A stretch of 64,000 nucleotides of DNA from Salinigranum marinum (lineage in GTDB: Archaea; Halobacteriota; Halobacteria; Halobacteriales; Haloferacaceae): contig NZ_CP100461.1 in NCBI RefSeq assembly GCF_024228675.1, forward strand, positions 1,240,001 to 1,304,000, given 5' to 3'. Each line of letters starts with the position of its first letter. Position 1 is the stretch's first letter. Under the pieces are notes generated by a model. That model was given only the letters and a program-made list of their open reading frames with translations, made no database searches and was not told the origin of the DNA. Position numbers and translations under genes: made by a program. Shown here in pieces: positions 22,405-35,698 of this stretch.

Positions 22405-23010
22405 ATGAATGACGAAACACCCGTCGTTCTCATCGTCGAAGACGAGCCTGATCTCGCGGATCTGTACGCGACGTGGCTCGACGGCGAGTACCAGGTCCGT
22501 GTCGCGTACGGGGGTCGGGAGGCACTCGAGGAACTCGACGAGGACGTCTCGGTCGTACTCTTGGACCGGCGCATGCCGGATCTGTCGGGCGACGAGGCCC
22601 TCGCGGAGATCCGCTCCCGCGGGTTCGACTGTCGCGTCGCGATGGTGACGGCCGTCGAACCCGACTTCGACATCGTCGCGATGGGCTTCGACGACTACCT
22701 CGTCAAGCCCGTCTCGAAAGACGCCCTCCACCAGACCGTCTCGAACCTCCTGCTCCGCAACGCGTACGACTCCGGCGTGCAGGAGCTGTTCTCCTTGGCC
22801 TCGAAGAAGGCGCTGTTGGAGGCCGAGAAGGGGCCGACCGCGCTCAGCGATAGCGAGGAGTACCAGGAGCTCGACGAACAGCTCGCGGAGCTCCGCCAGG
22901 AACTCGACGAGACGCTCGGGCAGTTCGACGAGGGCGACGAGATCTCCGCGCTCTACCACGACATCGGTCGGGGCGTCGAGGACGAAGACGGCACCTCCGA
23001 CCCGTTCTGA
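22405..23010 (+). CDS. Response regulator with receiver and HalX domains
   Basis: A 201-residue protein. Receiver domain, residues 7-120: acidic pocket VEDEPD, phosphorylated aspartate D54 in VLLDRRMPDLSG, conserved Thr in VTAVEP and K101 in DYLVKPVSK. The C-terminal part (about 125-190) is the helical HalX domain (LFSLASKKALLEAEKG, then a coiled-coil-like ELDEQLAELRQELDETLGQF). It has no DNA-binding domain, so it probably relays by protein contact. No histidine kinase gene is adjacent. It lies between the TrmB gene and the DUF7503-like peptide, all on the plus strand. Confidence 0.93.
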   Translation: MNDETPVVLIVEDEPDLADLYATWLDGEYQVRVAYGGREALEELDEDVSVVLLDRRMPDLSGDEALAEIRSRGFDCRVAMVTAVEPDFDIVAMGFDDYLVKPVSKDALHQTVSNLLLRNAYDSGVQELFSLASKKALLEAEKGPTALSDSEEYQELDEQLAELRQELDETLGQFDEGDEISALYHDIGRGVEDEDGTSDPF

Positions 23011-23171
23011 CCGACGCGCCGACTCCACGGCCCGCGTTCGACGGCGTTCGGCCGACCGGCACTTTTTCACCGCCTTCGGAGGCGAGACCTATCCGTGAGC
23101 TGATCATAGAACCGACAGAGAGCGCCTCGAACACGCACCGACCCTGAGAGCCGCTGGGATTCTGCCTGAGC

Positions 23172-23255
23172 GTTTAGTGACATATAATAATCTGTTAATT
23201 AAATTAATTTAGTATCAGAACTGTAAGAAAATATTTATTTAATCGCCGGGCGATT
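23172..23255 (+). promoter_or_regulatory. AT-rich promoter island with a 15-bp palindromic operator candidate
   Basis: An unusually AT-rich stretch with several TATA-like steps ends in ATATTTATTTAA (23231-23242), which lies about 27 bases before the ATG at 23269. Overlapping its 3' edge is a perfect inverted repeat, AATCGCC-G-GGCGATT (23241-23255), exactly where a repressor would block initiation. The TATA call is firm; the operator is inferred. Confidence 0.6.
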
Positions 23256-23268
23256 GTCAACGTGTATC

Positions 23269-23409
23269 ATGTCGGATGACAACTCCGCGCTGGTGTCCTA
23301 CCTCACGGACAACCCGCGCATGATGGGTGCACTGTTCACGATCGTCCTGCTGCTGTCGCAAGCCGGAGGCGCGCTCGCCAGTAACGCGAGCACGACCGCC
23401 GGGCCGTAA
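23269..23409 (+). CDS. DUF7503-like 46-residue membrane peptide
   Basis: A small gene read as MSDDNSALVSYLTDNP, then RMMGALFTIVLLLSQAGGAL, then ASNASTTAGP. A short acidic N-terminus is followed by one hydrophobic segment (about residues 18-37) that could span the membrane, and a short Ser/Thr-rich tail; the end of the hydrophobic segment (GALA) could also be a cleavage site. The NPRMMGxLFTxxLLLSQAG pattern fits what I remember of the haloarchaeal DUF7503 family, function unknown. A strong TATA box and a palindromic operator candidate sit directly upstream. Its TAA (23407-23409) directly abuts the stop codon of the convergent caspase-like gene. Confidence 0.8.
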   Translation: MSDDNSALVSYLTDNPRMMGALFTIVLLLSQAGGALASNASTTAGP

Positions 23410-25521
23410 TCAGAGCGAGTCGAAGTCGAGTTCGCTGCTCCAGCACAGCCTGTTTTCGAAGACGACCGGGACGTCCGCCAGCGACAGGAAATCCGCCAGT
23501 TCCTCACGCGTGAGATCGAAACTATCGACGAAGCCCGAGGAGAGGTAGTGGGTCTCGTTGTCCTTCAGATGCGGGATGATGAGCGTCCCCATGCCCCGCT
23601 CCCTGGTGGGGAACGCCTTGTACTCGAGCTCGAAGCGGTCCCCGTCGAGTTCGTGCACGTAACAGGCGTTCGGCACGCCACTTTCGGACTGCGCGATGGC
23701 GAAGCCACCGTCGCCGACGACGACGTACTGGCTCCCGAGGGCGTTGTCGTCGCCGGCGACGTCGAGCGCGCTCCCGAGCGGGAAGCCGCGGTTGAGGAGG
23801 CGCGCGAGCGTCTTGCCCATCTCGACGGCCCCGCTGTTGATCACGTCGCTGAGCGTGACGATGCCGCCGATGGCCCCGGCGTCGATGAGGCCGACCCCCT
23901 GTTCGTACGACTGACAGGCGTTCAGGAGGAACGCGTCGGGGCCGACCTCGTCGAGAGTGGTGGCGTCGAGGCGACCGTCGGCGCACTCGAAGCCCGCGGC
24001 GTCGATGTGGCCGATGTAGTGGAGGAACTCGACGTCCGTCGTGAGCGTCTCGCGGAGCTCCGCGACCGTCCGACCGTACTGGACGGTGACGTCGAACGGG
24101 AGTTCCTCGCGGGAGCCGTACACCCCGTCGACGACGTCGCGCTCGTCGATCATCCGCTCGTCGTTACACACCACGACGATGTCGATCGTTCCCGCCGTGG
24201 GCGACCGGTCGAGTCGGTTTCGAAACGCCTGTTTCGTCGTCTTCGACGCACCCAGGGGCGTGCCGTCGCCCATCCACGCCTGTTCGAGCGAGTCGGCCGA
24301 CTCCGGCTGGACGTACGCCCGCCCGGCGTCGGCCGCCGCGCTCCGGACAGGACCGCCGTCGCCGGCGCGGAAGAACTCCCCGGCGGCGGTCGCCTGCACC
24401 TCGGAGGCCGACAGCGAGGTCGCAGTCGGCGTCCGGACCACCGCGAGGTCGTTCACCACGAACGGGAGGAGTTCGACGTTGTCCGGCGTCGGCGCGACGT
24501 GCGTCGTCAGTTTCCACTCGGGGGTCTGGTCGCGGATCACCTCGTTCGGCACCGAGAGGGTGGCCGCGAGTCGCTCGGCGGGCGTGGCGTCGTAGAGGGC
24601 GGCGAAGTCGAGGTCGACGGCTGGTTCGACCGCCGCGCGTTCGTGTAAGTCGACCTTGTAGTAGCCCTCGGTCCGGACGAGACAGTCGAAGAAGAACGTC
24701 TGTTTCAGCACGCGTTCGACCTCGCGCTCGAAGCCGCGGGGGGTATCCAGCCGGTGTTCGAAGCCCGTGTCGGTGACGATCCGGGGGCGGTCGCCGGGAA
24801 CGAGTTCGCCCCCGAGGTAGTACGCGAGCGGGGCGGCCACGTACGCGTGTTCGAGCGACCGCGGGAGTTCGATGCGGATCCCGGTCTTCGGCGCCGACAG
24901 CCCGTCGGGGATCGACAGCACGTCCCCGCGCTCGACGAGAGGCGGGTGACCCCGGAGCGTCGGATACGACCGCTCCACGGAGGTCGTCTTCAGCGCCGAG
25001 GAGAACGTCGAGAGCGCACGCATCACGTCGGCCGGGTCGTCGGTCGTCGTCAGGGTGGCCGCGGGCTGTTCGTGGTGTGAGCGCCCACCCACGACGACCT
25101 CGGTCGGGCCGTCGAAGGCGAGCCTCGTCCGGGTGGCGTCGGCGGTGACGGAGACGGCTCCCTCGACGCGGAGGTAGAGCTTCATCGGCGCACAGAGTTC
25201 GAGTCCGTACGTCCCCGGCTCGAACGACTCGTCGGCGAAGTGGGCCGCCTCGGCGAGCATCTGACCCTCGCCGTCGCGGACGTACACCGCGACGACCGAC
25301 GACAGCTCGATGCGCTCGGTGACGAACCGGACGGCGTCGTCGACGGGGAACCGGAGTCCGGCCGGGTCGGCCGGTTCGAGCGCGGGGGTCGTGGGCGTGA
25401 ACAGCCGGAACTGGTGGCGTTCGATCGGATCGACCACGAGCACGCCGGCGTCGTCCGTCAGTGGCGAGAACGAGACCCCGAACCCGTCGCACGTGGGGGA
25501 ACGCTCGCCCGGATGGGACAT
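23410..25521 (-). CDS. Caspase/CHAT-like protease protein, 703 residues
   Basis: The N-terminal about 430 residues are beta-rich and match no family I can name. The C-terminal third (about 450-660) looks like a caspase-fold (CHAT-type) domain: strand VDIVVVCND, then EFLHYIGHID with H505, then LLNACQSYEQG with C536, the spacing and context expected of the catalytic His-Cys dyad. Next come GGIVTLSDVINSGAVEMGKT and a long loop region. Caspase-fold enzymes cleave proteins and act in cell-death or regulatory cascades. It follows the DUF7504-like gene by 70 bases on the same strand and has its own TATA-like run. Its stop touches that of the convergent membrane peptide gene. Proteolytic activity is inferred from the motif, not shown. 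Confidence 0.7.
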   Translation of the reverse strand: MSHPGERSPTCDGFGVSFSPLTDDAGVLVVDPIERHQFRLFTPTTPALEPADPAGLRFPVDDAVRFVTERIELSSVVAVYVRDGEGQMLAEAAHFADESFEPGTYGLELCAPMKLYLRVEGAVSVTADATRTRLAFDGPTEVVVGGRSHHEQPAATLTTTDDPADVMRALSTFSSALKTTSVERSYPTLRGHPPLVERGDVLSIPDGLSAPKTGIRIELPRSLEHAYVAAPLAYYLGGELVPGDRPRIVTDTGFEHRLDTPRGFEREVERVLKQTFFFDCLVRTEGYYKVDLHERAAVEPAVDLDFAALYDATPAERLAATLSVPNEVIRDQTPEWKLTTHVAPTPDNVELLPFVVNDLAVVRTPTATSLSASEVQATAAGEFFRAGDGGPVRSAAADAGRAYVQPESADSLEQAWMGDGTPLGASKTTKQAFRNRLDRSPTAGTIDIVVVCNDERMIDERDVVDGVYGSREELPFDVTVQYGRTVAELRETLTTDVEFLHYIGHIDAAGFECADGRLDATTLDEVGPDAFLLNACQSYEQGVGLIDAGAIGGIVTLSDVINSGAVEMGKTLARLLNRGFPLGSALDVAGDDNALGSQYVVVGDGGFAIAQSESGVPNACYVHELDGDRFELEYKAFPTRERGMGTLIIPHLKDNETHYLSSGFVDSFDLTREELADFLSLADVPVVFENRLCWSSELDFDSL

Positions 25522-25537
25522 ACCCCTACGAACACGC

Positions 25538-25552
25538 GGTACGGGTAAAAAC
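25538..25552 (-). promoter_or_regulatory. TATA-like run upstream of the caspase/CHAT-like gene
   Basis: On the minus strand AGTTTTTACCC lies about 20-30 bases before the ATG at 25521, so this gene may have its own promoter besides read-through from the DUF7504-like gene. Confidence 0.4.
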
Positions 25553-25591
25553 TACTGGGAAAGACCCACCCCCACGAGCGGGGTGACTGGT

Positions 25592-26338
25592 TCAGTCGAG
25601 ATCGAACTCGAACCAGTCCGAGGTAGCGTCCGAGTCGCGGAACTCCCAGCGCTGGGTGAGCAGACCGTTGACCCTGAGTTCGACCACCGCGTCGAACAGC
25701 GGCTCGAACAGACGGACCAGCCGGGCAGTGCGCGGCTGGGGGAGCCACACGTGGGTCATTCCCGAGACGGACCGGATCTGTGCGGTCAACAGGTGGAGGA
25801 AGCGGAACAGCGTCTCCTCGCCGAACCGTTCGGCCAGCGACGGGAGACAGTCGAACGCGACGCGGAGCTCCGCGGGGTCGAGGCCGCCGGAGACGGCGAC
25901 GAAGCTGTCGACCGCGCGGCTGATCGCCTCCCCGAGTTCGCCGATCCCTCCGTCGACGTGTGTGGTCGTCGCGTCGATGCCGGCCGTCGGCGAGGGCGTG
26001 GCACCCGGCGTCTCGATGGAGTCGGCGGACGCCGACGAGACGCTCCGCGCCCCGTCGGCACACGCGACGACGTGCGCCGTCTCCGGCGCGACCGGACCGG
26101 TTCGTCGGACCCGACCGACGACGTCGTGACCGCGCGCGCCCGGGGTCACGAGCAGTCTGCGACGGGGCGGGGTCGCGCCGCCGTCGCCGAGCATCGCGCG
26201 CGAAGCCGTGTGGTACGAGTCCTCGGGGACCGCACCGACGACGAGGAGTGCGCTCCCCCGCTGCTTGAGCGCCGCGAGTGCGTCCACGAACGACTCGGTC
26301 TCCCCGTCGCCTGGCCAGCTGTCGCCTCCGGTTCCCAT
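25592..26338 (-). CDS. DUF7504-like protein with a degenerate RecA/KaiC-type fold
   Basis: A 248-residue protein. The N-terminal segment SALLVVGAVPEDSYHTASRA sits where RecA/KaiC proteins have their P-loop but lacks the G-x-G-K-[ST] pattern, so it probably does not hydrolyse ATP in the usual way. A middle region rich in Thr, Asp and Ala is followed by conserved-looking helices (ELRVAFDCLPSLAERFGEET, LFRFLHLLTAQIRSVSGMTH) and a C-terminal strand set (VVELRVNGLLTQRWEFRDSD). This resembles the haloarchaeal DUF7504 group from memory; function unknown. It is the promoter-proximal gene of a pair with the caspase/CHAT-like gene. Confidence 0.65.
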   Translation of the reverse strand: MGTGGDSWPGDGETESFVDALAALKQRGSALLVVGAVPEDSYHTASRAMLGDGGATPPRRRLLVTPGARGHDVVGRVRRTGPVAPETAHVVACADGARSVSSASADSIETPGATPSPTAGIDATTTHVDGGIGELGEAISRAVDSFVAVSGGLDPAELRVAFDCLPSLAERFGEETLFRFLHLLTAQIRSVSGMTHVWLPQPRTARLVRLFEPLFDAVVELRVNGLLTQRWEFRDSDATSDWFEFDLD

Positions 26339-29951: not shown

Positions 29952-32900
29952 TCAGTCTGGATACTCCCGGTTCAACAGCATCGAGAACGTCTTGCGCTCG
30001 GCCGTGCGGAGGTGTTTGTTGAACGTCGGCTGGGTTATGTCGAGCAACGCGGCGATCTCCTGCCCGCTCGACTCGCGCGGCCAGTCGAAGTAGCCCGCCG
30101 AGTAGGCGGTTTCGAGGGTCTCCAACTGCCGCTCGGTCAGCTGCTCGCCCAGCAGATCCTGCAGTTCGAGGAGCGTCTGGACCGACCGCTCGCGGGTCCG
30201 CTGGGCGACCAGTTCGGTGCCGGGGTACCGCTCTTTGAACGAGGTGACGAGCGCCCGGATGTCGGCCGCCTGCGGCGCTTCGACGACGAGGCGGGCGCCA
30301 CCGTCGCCGTCCCCGTCGTCGCCGTGGGTGCCACCCGCCTCGTCGACCGCTTCCGCCGTCCGAACGACGGCACCGTGCTCCGCGAAGACGGTTCCAAACC
30401 ACGACGACGTCTCGACCTCGACCAGACACGTCTCCGCGGACGCGTCGGCGCTGACGAGCGTGACGTCCGCGACGCCGCCGAGCGAGGCGATCTCGTCGAC
30501 CACCTGCTCGGGGGCGGCCCCCTCGACGGTGTAGAATGCCCCGAAGGCCCCGCTCGACCGCCGCACGGTCCGTTCGAGCGCCACGTCGGCTTCGGCTTGG
30601 CGGGCCGCCCGGGCGAACAGGAGGTCGTCGTCGCGGCCCGCGAACTCCAGTTCGGTCGTGGTGTCGGACTCCAGCGCCGCCCGCCGCTCGAGCACCGAGA
30701 TGGCGTAGCCCACCGACCGCCCGAGCTCGGTCAGGATCGCCTCCGCCCGCTCGTCGAACGCGGTCGGATCGGCCGCGATGATGGTCAACACGCCGTAGAC
30801 GGTCTCCGAGTGGGCCACCGGGACGGCCGCCACCGACTGGAAGCCCGCGCGGAGGATCGGCTTCCGCCACTCCCCGCGGGCGGTCTGCGTCGCGAGGTTC
30901 CGGACCGTCCGCGTCTCACCGCTCGAAAACGCCGCCGCCGCGGGATGGCGGTCGACGCCCGCGCCGTCGAGCTCGACCGCGTCCGTGTCCACGAGCCCCC
31001 CGTCTGCGCCGCGCGTCGCGCGGGAGACGAGCGCGTCGCTTCGGCGGTTCGGCTCGGCGATCCACGCGACCTGGTAGGGGTCGACCGTGACGAGCTGTTC
31101 GCAGACGACCGCCTCGATCGCCTCGCGCGTCGACTCCTCGACGGTCGCCTGTTCGATCTCCCTGATGACGGTGTTGAGCCGTTCGAGCCGCTCGGCCCGG
31201 GCGCGGTGCTCGCGGAGCTCCGCCTCCCGCTGTTCGAGTTCGTGCTGTCCGCGGACGTGGTTGAGCGCGCCTTCGAGCGTGGCCGCGAGGATCTGCGCCA
31301 GTTCGACGGTTTCGGCGTCGAACTCCCGGTCTGGCGCGCCGACCAGCATCACGCCGTGCGAGCCGAGGGGGAGGAGGAGGTCCGGATCCGAGACGCCGGC
31401 TCCGTACAGGCCGGTCTCCGACTCGATCTCGGAGCCTCGGACCGTCTCGCCGTCGACGAACACCTGCCACGGCAGGCTCGTGCCGGGCTCGAACGACGGC
31501 AGGAAGTCGAGCGTCTCGCGGAGTCGGTCGGTCTCGCTGACCGGCCGAAGCGCCCCCTCGGACTCGTCGTAGAGGTGGATGCTGACGTGCGAGAAGCCGA
31601 GGACCCCGTCGGCCGCGTCGACGGCGACCTGGCTCGCCTCCTTCCGGGAGCCGGCCTCGGTCAGTTCGCGCGTCGCCCCGTGGAACGTCTCGAGGGTGTC
31701 CTCGCGTTCCTTGCGCTCGGTCACGTCGCGACTGACGACGACGAACCGGTCGGTGTCGTCGGCCCACCCGATCGGGTAGAAGTCAGAACGGATCCACCGA
31801 CGCTCCCCGTCCGGCCGCTCGATGCGGTACTCACCGGTGTACCGGTCGTCGTGCTCGCCCCGCTCGACTTCCCGAACCCACTCGCGCATGGCGGTCTGGT
31901 ACTCCTGCCTGTCGTCGGGGTGGACGATCTCGATGAACTCCATCGAGTCGTCGCCCCCGAACTCGTCGTACGACCGACCGAAGACGTCCTCGTAGCCGGC
32001 GCTCACGTAGACGTCCCCCGTCCCGTCGCCGAGCAGTCTGGCGCTGTCGGTGAGGAAGATCGCCTCGTCGATCCGGTCGAGGATCGCGCTCATGCGGCGC
32101 TCGCTCTCCCGACGCTCCCGGGCGCGTGCGACGCGGTCGAGCGCGGTCGTCGTGTGCCGTGCCAGGATCCGGGCGGCGTCGAGGACCACCTCGTCGAACT
32201 CCTCGACGCCGGGGTCGGCCGCGCCGATGACGCCGTGGTCACCGACCGGGACCATGAGCGCGTGGTTCAACGACGTCCGGTCCCAGCGCGCGCTAGGGTC
32301 GTAGACCGCCGACTCACCACGCTCGTACAGCTCGTACTCGAAGGTCCCCGGTTCGAGCGGGCCGGGCCCGCCGGCGAACTCCCTGGCGGCGTCGCTCGCG
32401 GCGACCGGTTCGAGGACCGTCCGGCCGCCCGCCCCGTCGCCCTCGCCGTCTTCGGCTCCCGCCCCGCCGCCGTCGTCCCGCTGGAGCCAGCAGACCGGGA
32501 GCGACAGGCCGAGCACCTCCTCCATGGCCGCCACCGTCGCCTCGCAGACCTCGTCGGTCGTCGCCGCGTCTTGGATGCGCGCGGTCGACTCGTGGAGCGC
32601 ACTCATGATCCGCTGGTGGCGCTTCCGGTCGGTGACGTCCCGGGAGATACCCAGTATCCGGAGTTCGCCGCCGATCCGCGCCGGCGTCGTGTCGACCTCG
32701 TACCAGCGACGCTCGCCGTCGGCGGTCTCGACGGGCCACTCGACGGTCACGGGATCGCCCGTCTCGGCGACCTCCTGGATGATCTCACGGGAGCGTTCCT
32801 CGGAGTACCCCGCCACGTCGGGGGTCAGCCCCTCGACATCGAGGTCGAGGATGGTCGACTCGTCGTACCCCGACGCCTGGACGTAGCTGTCGTTGACGTC

Positions 32901-35303
32901 GAGGATCTCGCCCGTCTCGGGGTCGTGGACGCTGATGAGGTCGTTGACGCCGTCGAAGATCTGCTGGTACTCGCGCTGTCTCCGCTTGCGCTCTGTGACG
33001 TCGCGGACGCTCGCGAGGACGCGCTCTCGCCCCTCGAGCTCGACGATCGTGAGGCTGATCTCCGCCGCGAACGTCCCGCCGTCCTTCCGCGCGCCCCGCC
33101 ACTCGAACAGCTGTGGCCCCTCCTCGCGCGCCGCGTCGATCAGCCGCTTGGCCGCCGCCTCCGAGTAGTCGGGGTCCGCCGTCATGACGATCCCGATGTC
33201 CGCCCCAACGAGTTCGTCGTGGCCGTAGCCGGTCAGTTCGCAGTACCGGTCGTTGACGTCGAGGATCTCGCCCGTCTCGGGGTCGTGGACGACGAGCCCG
33301 TCGCTCACACTCTCGAACAGTTCGCGGTAGGTCCGCTCCAGTTCCCGCTGGTCGGTCACGTCGCTGACGGTGCCGACGACGCGGTCGACGACGCCATCGT
33401 CGTTCTCGATGGGCGAGCGCGTCACCCGCACCCACCGGGTCTCGCCGTCGACGCGGAGCCGGTACTCGCCCTCGTACACCTCGTCGGGGTCGCCGGCGTC
33501 GATGTCGTCGATCATGCGCTCGACGTCGCGTTCGTACCGATCGCGGTCGTCGGGGTGAGCGGCCTCGACGAACGACCGCGGGTCCTCGGAGAGCTCCGCG
33601 ACCGATTCGCCGTAGATCTCTTCGTACGCCGGGTTGACGTACCGGATCTCGGAGAGGTCGGCCGACGCGAGGTAGATCACCTCGTCGATGTGGTCGGCGA
33701 TCAGCCGCAGGCGGCGCTCCCGTCCTCTGAGCTCCTCTTCGAGGCGTTTGCGCTCCGTGATGTCGCGAGCGATCCCGACGATCTGTCGCACCTCCCCGTC
33801 GATGATCACCGGGGAGAGCTTGGTCTGCCACGTCCGCTCGCCCGCCGGAAACGCCAGTTCCTCCTCGTAGGTGATCGTCTCGCGCTCGGCGAGACACCGC
33901 CGGTAGTTCGCCTCGATCTCGGCCCCGGGGTCCGCGCCGAACGCCTCCCGCGGCGACCGCCCACGGAGTTCCTCGTCCTCGATGCCCGTCGTTTCCCCGT
34001 GCGTGTCGTTGAGCCGGCGGTAGACGAACGTGGGTTCGCCACCCCCCTCTCCTTCCGCTCCCCGTTCGACGTCGACGAGGAACAGCGAGTCCTGTGCGTT
34101 CTCGTAGACGGTCTCGTACTCCTGTTTGAGCGTTCTGAGCTCCACCTCCCGCCGCTTGCGCTCGGTGATGTCACGGACCGTCGCCATCGTCGCCGGCTCG
34201 CCCTCGTGGGTGATCCGCGAGACCGTGAGTTCGGCGGCGACCCGGTCGCCCGTCGCCGTCAGGAGTTCGACGTCGTAGCTCGACTGCGGCTCCTCCCCCG
34301 CGATCCGTCGCTCGTACCGCTCGCGGACGACCTCGCGGTCGTCCTCGGCGAACACCTCGTCGAACGATGTGTCGAGCAGCTCCGCGCGACTCCGGCCGGT
34401 GATCTCGCAGAAGCGGTCGTTGACGAACGCGTACGTCCCCGCCTGCACGATGACGACGCCGTCGTTGCTCCCCTCGACGAGCGTCGTGTACTTCCGCCGC
34501 TCCTCCTCCCGCGTGCGTTCGCGGCGCTTGCGGTCGGTGATGTCGCGGACGCTCGCCAGCACCCGTTCCTCGCCGCGGACGTCGACGACCGTGAGGTGGA
34601 CCTCGACCGGGAACGTCGTCCCGTCCTTCCGCCGGTTGTCCCACTCGAACAGCTGCGGCCCCTCCTCGCGCGCGCGCCTGATCCGCTCGCGGGCGTCATC
34701 GTACGAGCGGCCGTCGGTCGACGGGGTGACGACGTCGATGTGCTCCCCGACGAGCTCCGCCCGCTCGTAGCCGTTCATGTCGCAGAACCGCTCGTTGGCG
34801 TCGACGATCTCGCCCGTCTCGGGGTCGTGGAGGACGAGCCCGTCCGACGTGCGCTCGAACAGCTCCGTGTACGTCTGTTCGAGCTCCCGCCGATCGGTGA
34901 CGTCCTCGGTGACGCTCACGAATCGCTCGACAGAGCCCTCTTCGACGACGGGGTACCGCTGGACGCGGATCCAGCGGATCCCTCCGTCGACGGAGAGCCG
35001 GTACTCGCCCTCGTACGTCTCCTCGGCGTCGTCACGGTCGAAGGCGTCGAGCATCCGGTCGAGGTCCGCCTCGTACCGGTCTCGATCGGCCGGGTGGACG
35101 GTGTCGAGCGTCGACCGGGGGTCGTCGTACAGACGCTCGACCGACTGGCCGTACACCGTCTCGTACGCCGGATTGACATACTCAACCGTCGAGCGATCCG
35201 CCGCGGCGATGAGAATGACCGCGTCGACGTTCTCGGCAACCAGGCGGAACCGCTCTTCGGTCCGCCTGAGTTCCCGGATCCTGTCGCCGGACAGATCGGG
35301 CAT
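29952..35303 (-). CDS. Giant PAS/GAF sensor with Bat-type HTH output
   Basis: A 1783-residue protein. Eight PAS domains lie near residues 17-137, 140-262, 270-390, 397-525, 530-655, 656-783, 786-900 and 1070-1195, most ending in the PAC-type (R/S)D(I/V)T(E/D)(R/Q)(K/R) motif. GAF domains lie near 902-1065, 1200-1365 and 1378-1540. A Bat sensory domain (about 1549-1710) and a C-terminal HTH_10 follow (LTERQLETLETAYSAGYFDW, SGQEIAALLDITQPTFNKHL). There is no histidine kinase or receiver domain: signals should pass directly to DNA binding, in the cytoplasm, no membrane segment being visible. PAS1-2 and PAS5-6 are close copies. The start at 35303 (MPDLSGDR) lies about 28 bases after a TATA-like sequence. 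Redox, light and ligand inputs are all possible. Confidence 0.93.
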   Translation of the reverse strand: MPDLSGDRIRELRRTEERFRLVAENVDAVILIAAADRSTVEYVNPAYETVYGQSVERLYDDPRSTLDTVHPADRDRYEADLDRMLDAFDRDDAEETYEGEYRLSVDGGIRWIRVQRYPVVEEGSVERFVSVTEDVTDRRELEQTYTELFERTSDGLVLHDPETGEIVDANERFCDMNGYERAELVGEHIDVVTPSTDGRSYDDARERIRRAREEGPQLFEWDNRRKDGTTFPVEVHLTVVDVRGEERVLASVRDITDRKRRERTREEERRKYTTLVEGSNDGVVIVQAGTYAFVNDRFCEITGRSRAELLDTSFDEVFAEDDREVVRERYERRIAGEEPQSSYDVELLTATGDRVAAELTVSRITHEGEPATMATVRDITERKRREVELRTLKQEYETVYENAQDSLFLVDVERGAEGEGGGEPTFVYRRLNDTHGETTGIEDEELRGRSPREAFGADPGAEIEANYRRCLAERETITYEEELAFPAGERTWQTKLSPVIIDGEVRQIVGIARDITERKRLEEELRGRERRLRLIADHIDEVIYLASADLSEIRYVNPAYEEIYGESVAELSEDPRSFVEAAHPDDRDRYERDVERMIDDIDAGDPDEVYEGEYRLRVDGETRWVRVTRSPIENDDGVVDRVVGTVSDVTDQRELERTYRELFESVSDGLVVHDPETGEILDVNDRYCELTGYGHDELVGADIGIVMTADPDYSEAAAKRLIDAAREEGPQLFEWRGARKDGGTFAAEISLTIVELEGRERVLASVRDVTERKRRQREYQQIFDGVNDLISVHDPETGEILDVNDSYVQASGYDESTILDLDVEGLTPDVAGYSEERSREIIQEVAETGDPVTVEWPVETADGERRWYEVDTTPARIGGELRILGISRDVTDRKRHQRIMSALHESTARIQDAATTDEVCEATVAAMEEVLGLSLPVCWLQRDDGGGAGAEDGEGDGAGGRTVLEPVAASDAAREFAGGPGPLEPGTFEYELYERGESAVYDPSARWDRTSLNHALMVPVGDHGVIGAADPGVEEFDEVVLDAARILARHTTTALDRVARARERRESERRMSAILDRIDEAIFLTDSARLLGDGTGDVYVSAGYEDVFGRSYDEFGGDDSMEFIEIVHPDDRQEYQTAMREWVREVERGEHDDRYTGEYRIERPDGERRWIRSDFYPIGWADDTDRFVVVSRDVTERKEREDTLETFHGATRELTEAGSRKEASQVAVDAADGVLGFSHVSIHLYDESEGALRPVSETDRLRETLDFLPSFEPGTSLPWQVFVDGETVRGSEIESETGLYGAGVSDPDLLLPLGSHGVMLVGAPDREFDAETVELAQILAATLEGALNHVRGQHELEQREAELREHRARAERLERLNTVIREIEQATVEESTREAIEAVVCEQLVTVDPYQVAWIAEPNRRSDALVSRATRGADGGLVDTDAVELDGAGVDRHPAAAAFSSGETRTVRNLATQTARGEWRKPILRAGFQSVAAVPVAHSETVYGVLTIIAADPTAFDERAEAILTELGRSVGYAISVLERRAALESDTTTELEFAGRDDDLLFARAARQAEADVALERTVRRSSGAFGAFYTVEGAAPEQVVDEIASLGGVADVTLVSADASAETCLVEVETSSWFGTVFAEHGAVVRTAEAVDEAGGTHGDDGDGDGGARLVVEAPQAADIRALVTSFKERYPGTELVAQRTRERSVQTLLELQDLLGEQLTERQLETLETAYSAGYFDWPRESSGQEIAALLDITQPTFNKHLRTAERKTFSMLLNREYPD

Positions 35304-35698
35304 ACCCCACGTATCCGGTGGACCGGTAAGTATTGTCGGGGTCACGGCCCCCACGCCCGGTTCGAGGGCGGCCCGCGCGGCGGCACGACCTGCCGTCACC
35401 GACCGACGTAGCGGCCGTCTCAGACAGGTCTCCGACCGACGAGGCGACGGTTCCGACGGAGCGACCACCCCGATTCCACCTCGCGAGCCAGTGGGTATCC
35501 GAGAGATCGAGGGCAGAGAGGGCCCTGACCGACCCGGTGGCTAGCTGTATAGCCCCGGTGAGACGGGCGACACGACGTGCGTACACGGAACGGCCTGGTT
35601 CGTGGGGGTCCGAGGGAGACGTATGAGCCGAACGCCCCCGTCGGTTCGACCCGACCCGCATCGTCCCGCCGAACAGATCACACAGCCCACCGCTCCGA
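35304..35698. other. Intergenic region between the giant regulator and a small membrane protein gene
   Basis: 395 bases between divergent genes with no supportable gene. It holds the TATA-like CAATACTTACC of the regulator (minus strand, 35326-35336) and a small inverted repeat GGCTA-N6-TAGCC at 35539-35554. Confidence 0.5.

Follow-up and report, generated by a model that had tools for sequence, protein, structure and literature searches.

A predicted CHAT/caspase-fold cysteine endopeptidase, whose family is core to the haloarchaea, is very probably linked in function to a membrane micropeptide of the Pfam family DUF7503, the gene of which is its nearly obligate neighbour and converges on its 3' end. 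The window, i.e., the whole stretch of 64,000 nucleotides analysed here, comes from a haloarchaeal genome of 4.9 Mb, and three genes were confirmed between 23269 and 26338: a 46-residue peptide on the plus strand, and a 703-residue and a 248-residue protein on the minus strand. A sequence-only reading of this DNA had placed the three genes there, with which the open reading frame coordinates agree, and had regarded them as one caspase-associated module. The convergent orientation of the peptide and protease genes, absent from that reading, is the key link. These two genes lie tail to tail with directly adjacent stop codons (23409/23410), and the 248-residue gene lies upstream of the 703-residue gene with 70 bp between them. 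The features are as follows.

22405..23010, plus strand: response regulator of the HalX type, encoded immediately before the peptide gene (HalX E 3e-24, Response_reg E 3e-19)
23170..23268, plus strand: AT-rich region holding the promoter of the peptide gene, including the BRE/TATA-like GAAAATATTTATTT (sequence and aligned motif)
23269 (ATG)..23409 (stop), plus strand: DUF7503 membrane micropeptide, 46 residues (DUF7503 E 9e-20, conservation in 129 copies, hydropathy)
23410..25521, minus strand: predicted CHAT/caspase-fold cysteine endopeptidase, 703 residues, convergent with DUF7503 (AlphaFold, Foldseek, dyad)
23701..24195, minus strand: CHAT domain, about residues 443-607 of the 703-residue protein (AlphaFold strands, invariant GH and LNAC/LNGC motifs)
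24007-24009 and 23914-23916, minus strand: codons of H505 and C536, respectively, within the CHAT domain (sequence)
24367..25080, minus strand: middle domain, about residues 148-385 of the 703-residue protein (conservation, fragment model)
25592..26338, minus strand: DUF7504, KaiC/RecA-like without Walker A, 248 residues, optional partner (DUF7504 E 3e-51)

The linkage was assessed in 144 protease copies from fetched neighbourhoods, some places being present in both fetched sets; the final set held 141 pairs, of which 125 were non-redundant at 90%. In 129 of the 144 copies, far beyond chance, the opposite strand carried a DUF7503 gene that converges on the 3' end of the protease gene. The gap between the stop codons was 0 in 35 copies and -4 in 18 (53 together), it was within 10 bp in 64%, and its maximum was 220 bp. 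Twelve further loci were chosen from the DUF7503 list for having no visible protease match, and a convergent protease was present in all twelve. At the genome level, DUF7503 was found in 120 genomes, all 120 of which also have the protease family, and the 14 protease-less genomes had no DUF7503. The count of adjacency across haloarchaeal genomes, which the sequence-only reading had suggested, thus gave a co-occurrence far above chance. Protease and peptide divergence were also correlated (Mantel r 0.39; the highest value among 2000 shuffles of the 125 non-redundant pairs was 0.17). A convergent gene pair retained across a whole class is unusual and points to functional or transcript-level coupling. 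Among the 15 copies without an adjacent peptide are a distant paralogue from the window's own genome and the copies in G081 and G136, both of which are close to that of the window. Only in Natronomonas (L175/L083) was the pair seen rearranged in such a way that DUF7503 lies about 1.4 kb from the protease and is encoded on its strand.

The window peptide belongs to DUF7503 (70.4 bits against a cut-off of 27, E 9e-20), the members of which are mostly 43-48 residues long in the 129 copies, with about 44 being typical. They are composed of an N-terminal tail, a conserved hydrophobic segment and a short tail. The core reads YLxx(H/N)P(R/K)MxG(V/A)LFTxxLLLSQAG, in which the Pro is invariant and the Phe, Leu, Gln and Gly are nearly so; a small-x-small motif follows it in 127 of 129 copies, and the short and variable tail ends in Gly-Pro in 115 of 129. 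The hydropathy maximum (1.91 over 15 residues) and the basic residue preceding the segment indicate that DUF7503 is probably a single-pass helix with its N-terminus inside, and the conserved Arg/Lys may reflect only the positive-inside rule. A promoter of its own precedes the peptide gene: in an alignment of 109 non-redundant copies, the BRE/TATA-like motif TaTcagaaatatTcAgAaAatTTtAttt recurs at an almost constant spacing from the ATG (17.8 bits as compared to 7.2 for shuffles). As the stop codons abut, the protease and peptide transcripts probably overlap.

The 703-residue protein had no significant family match in Pfam or NCBIfam, and no match was obtained when the profile of its family was searched against PDB sequences; its kinship to known folds is visible by fold comparison only. 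Its closest named relative is a Salinigranum salinum protein (80% identical). The AlphaFold model, for which an alignment of 60 relatives was the input, had a mean pLDDT of 87.4 and a pTM of 0.89. Against solved structures, the best Foldseek match of the full model was separase (E 7e-8); a SAVED-CHAT filament (4e-7), gingipain R (3e-6) and human separase matched further, as did the TPR-CHAT of Craspase (6e-4). In the model, H505 (in LHYIGHID) sits after strand 499-503 with one Gly between, and C536 (in LLNACQSYE) sits after strand 530-534 with one Ala between, i.e., at the ends of successive strands, a layout typical of clan CD peptidases. The sequence-only reading had described both motifs correctly. 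It had also assigned the C-terminal domain to a caspase/CHAT context, for which the model, the Foldseek matches, the Pfam CHAT model (10 of 28 family members at E <= 1, best 4e-5) and a dyad invariant in all 144 aligned haloarchaeal copies now argue. The structural comparison that it had proposed likewise returned a caspase-like domain, and AlphaFold and Foldseek together place the protein in the caspase-hemoglobinase fold. The window protein itself had no Pfam CHAT match over the curated cut-off, and the gingipain model matched one family member, weakly. We consider it highly likely that the 703-residue protein is, as predicted, a CHAT/caspase-fold protease in both fold and activity.

The middle domain (148-385) is conserved equally to the CHAT domain (62% mean identity) and carries the motif ALKTTSxERSYPTLRGHPP. 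Fragment 146-446 was modelled alone with a pLDDT of 88, and this model had no PDB match at E <= 0.001 and no caspase-fold match, so the 703-residue protein is not simply a separase. A tandem of a separase-like pseudo-protease and a protease had been suggested by a 541-column Foldseek alignment and was dropped because of the isolated fragment model. The protein resembles separase (C50) in being matched best by it and in the order of its dyad, His and then Cys, each of which follows one of two successive strands in a caspase-like sheet; however, separases have a pseudo-protease domain before the active domain, the middle domain here matches neither that domain nor any PDB entry, and no cohesin system is known. 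Csx29/TPR-CHAT (Craspase) and SAVED-CHAT share the fold and the dyad motif, Pfam CHAT matches some members of the family, and both are regulated endopeptidases, as is predicted here. On the other hand, the 703-residue protein has other N-terminal and middle domains, has no TPR, SAVED or CRISPR context, and is coupled to a membrane micropeptide. Versions of the protease of 860-1000 residues had no additional Pfam domain. An apparent swap of the C-terminal domain in G127/G096 was rejected, the partial matches being split alignments of full-length proteins (L102, L103). C280 and C513, conserved in 143 of 144 copies, could form a metal site or a redox switch.

The protease family was found in 132 of 146 haloarchaeal genomes and in 52 of 59 genera, with 1-9 copies per genome and one copy in each of the 15 Haloferax genomes examined. 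The sequence-only reading had called the three families rare outside haloarchaea; for DUF7503, the check covered 14 control genomes. When the whole phylum was sampled for the protease, distant relatives from beyond the class were confined to four genomes of one other family, which we take to be Methanocella. Their loci have no DUF7503, and housekeeping genes lie alongside in the 2 or 3 loci with readable neighbours. In one of these relatives (L202:6040-8100), both catalytic residues, His and Cys, are gone (IGRHNAQ, FFLCTDSS), whereas its sisters L200, L201 and L203 retain them. As for other caspase-fold peptidases, Peptidase_C14 (caspase/metacaspase) was found in 0 of 59 haloarchaeal genomes, the window's own included, and the C11 model had no match in 25. 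The sole C25 match in haloarchaea falls inside a member of the protease family, and Pfam CHAT exceeded its cut-off in 3 of 59 genomes, two of the three places being inside known members. The C14, C11, C25 and CHAT models thus revealed no separate caspase-fold family in the haloarchaea searched; the separase C50 model had no match in 25 haloarchaeal genomes, and its control search was also without a match. Viral relatives were limited to one weak structural match. The distant paralogue in the window's genome (G000:C1:839988-841904, L048:7860-9923) is 33% identical, keeps the dyad and has no DUF7503; a gene for a TbsP-like transcriptional regulator lies just downstream of it.

The 248-residue protein belongs to DUF7504 (174.9 bits against a cut-off of 27, E 3e-51), which, like DUF7503, is a family of unknown function. 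The sequence-only reading had given it a RecA/KaiC-like outline with no Walker A. The lack of Walker A was confirmed: at the position of the KaiC P-loop, the DUF7504 alignment reads GSALLVVGxVPxExY. The match between the KaiC and DUF7504 profiles is weak and falls in the Walker B stretch (E 0.014). In 56 of 144 copies (39%), the protease gene was preceded immediately by DUF7504, well above chance for a family with 1-15 copies in each of the 146 genomes; DUF7504 is also often found away from the protease, sometimes fused to DUF7344. Such a fusion, with DUF7344 at the C-terminus, lies near the protease gene in Haladaptatus (L167:7812-8729, L183, L185). Because DUF7504 is upstream in only 39% and belongs to a many-copy family found elsewhere, the proposed three-gene module is better described as a two-gene core, in which the linkage is very strong (129/144), with an optional third gene.

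In our proposal, which starts from the fold, dyad, linkage, promoter motif and co-inheritance as read from sequence or model, the 703-residue protein would be catalytically active as a cysteine endopeptidase, belonging within the caspase/separase fold to the CHAT branch, and its cytoplasmic activity would be tied to the membrane via the micropeptide. DUF7503 would cross the membrane once as a helix, placing the conserved Pro-Arg/Lys at its cytoplasmic edge and the short Gly-Pro tail outside, and would serve as a substrate of the protease or as its membrane-bound regulator. The setting may be a conserved haloarchaeal signalling or stress-response pathway, into which DUF7504 and the nearby two-component proteins could feed in a subset of lineages. 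We give this proposal as a whole an even chance of being right. A cell-death role is possible. In Craspase, the target cut by the CHAT protease is a protein that regulates a transcription factor (PMC10028731), so transcriptional signalling is a model equal to cell death. The peptide could also act independently of proteolysis.

Several other readings have to be weighed. DUF7503 might be a precursor, from which a signal peptidase cut after A-x-A frees an extracellular signal of 8-10 residues ending in Gly-Pro, with the protease, DUF7504 and two-component proteins processing or answering it. The small residues at -3 and -1 in 127 of 129 copies, the short variable tail with its GP end in 115 and the two-component and TrmB genes that commonly adjoin the locus fit such a precursor, but conservation is highest in the hydrophobic segment, which is not so in an ordinary signal peptide, and neither a receptor nor an exporter is linked, which makes it unlikely. 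Type I toxins with a convergent antisense RNA, such as TxpA/RatA and BsrG/SR4, likewise pair a small one-segment hydrophobic peptide with a 3'-overlapping convergent partner, although the partner of DUF7503 is a protein-coding gene of 700 residues. If the peptide were toxic and the protease mRNA ran past its stop codon, the latter would be antisense to the whole peptide mRNA. The conserved convergent overlap (a gap of 0 or -4 in 53 copies) is in accord with this, and in 102 of 141 pairs the protease strand reaches the peptide ATG without a T4 run, in 129 without a T5 run. In 39 pairs, however, a T4 run does fall within the peptide gene or ahead of it, some lineages have gaps up to 220 bp, and the catalytic dyad is left unexplained, so we hold such a pair to be quite unlikely. 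Retention of the neighbours by their overlapping ends, without any functional link, would follow from the cost of separating overlapping stop codons; it is hardly credible, as the linkage is kept at gaps of 20-220 bp and the presence of both genes co-varies at the genome level.

An anti-virus module, in which infection triggers the protease, is suggested by the CHAT proteases that work in CRISPR type III systems (Csx29, PMC10028731) and by the up to nine copies in some genomes. Such a module is very unlikely, for the family is present in 132 of 146 genomes and none of the three proteins had a PADLOC match. The locus is syntenic in Haloferacales, with an Lrp regulator and an aminotransferase on one side and HalX, a TrmB-like regulator and an IMP dehydrogenase on the other. 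HalX is a frequent neighbour (about 18 loci in the orientation of the window), as are two-component and TrmB genes in general, and the synteny, these metabolic and regulatory surroundings and the PADLOC result argue against a plain defence island. A CHAT domain acting as a non-proteolytic scaffold or sensor has a precedent in L202 outside the class, which indicates that the fold can persist without catalytic residues; the invariance of His and Cys in all 144 haloarchaeal copies renders it highly improbable within the class.

Extracts of Haloferax volcanii have strong caspase-like activity with no assigned gene, and caspase homologues are said to be absent from archaea (PMC3615174). The family described here is the only caspase-fold peptidase that we found in the haloarchaea searched and bears on this question. 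All 15 Haloferax genomes examined encode one protease copy, and the DUF7503 and DUF7504 profiles match in H. volcanii. Of the genes examined, the protease-DUF7503 pair is the leading candidate for the haloarchaeal caspase-like activity, a candidate by gene content and not by cleavage at Asp. In a further and quite unlikely reading, haloarchaea would have in this module their missing caspase system, with the CHAT protease both causing the Haloferax activity and controlling a membrane micropeptide effector; if true, it would be an archaeal stress or death switch that acts from protease to membrane and dates back to early haloarchaeal evolution. The fold is known. The literature searched contained no paper naming DUF7503, DUF7504 or CHAT in haloarchaea, and neither the protease family nor its middle domain nor the nearly obligate convergent micropeptide seems to have been described there. 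Elsewhere in the window (29952-35468, minus strand), an open reading frame of 1838 residues has, by eye, many repeated PAS-like sensor domains and a C-terminal helix-turn-helix, as in a very large haloarchaeal sensor-regulator.
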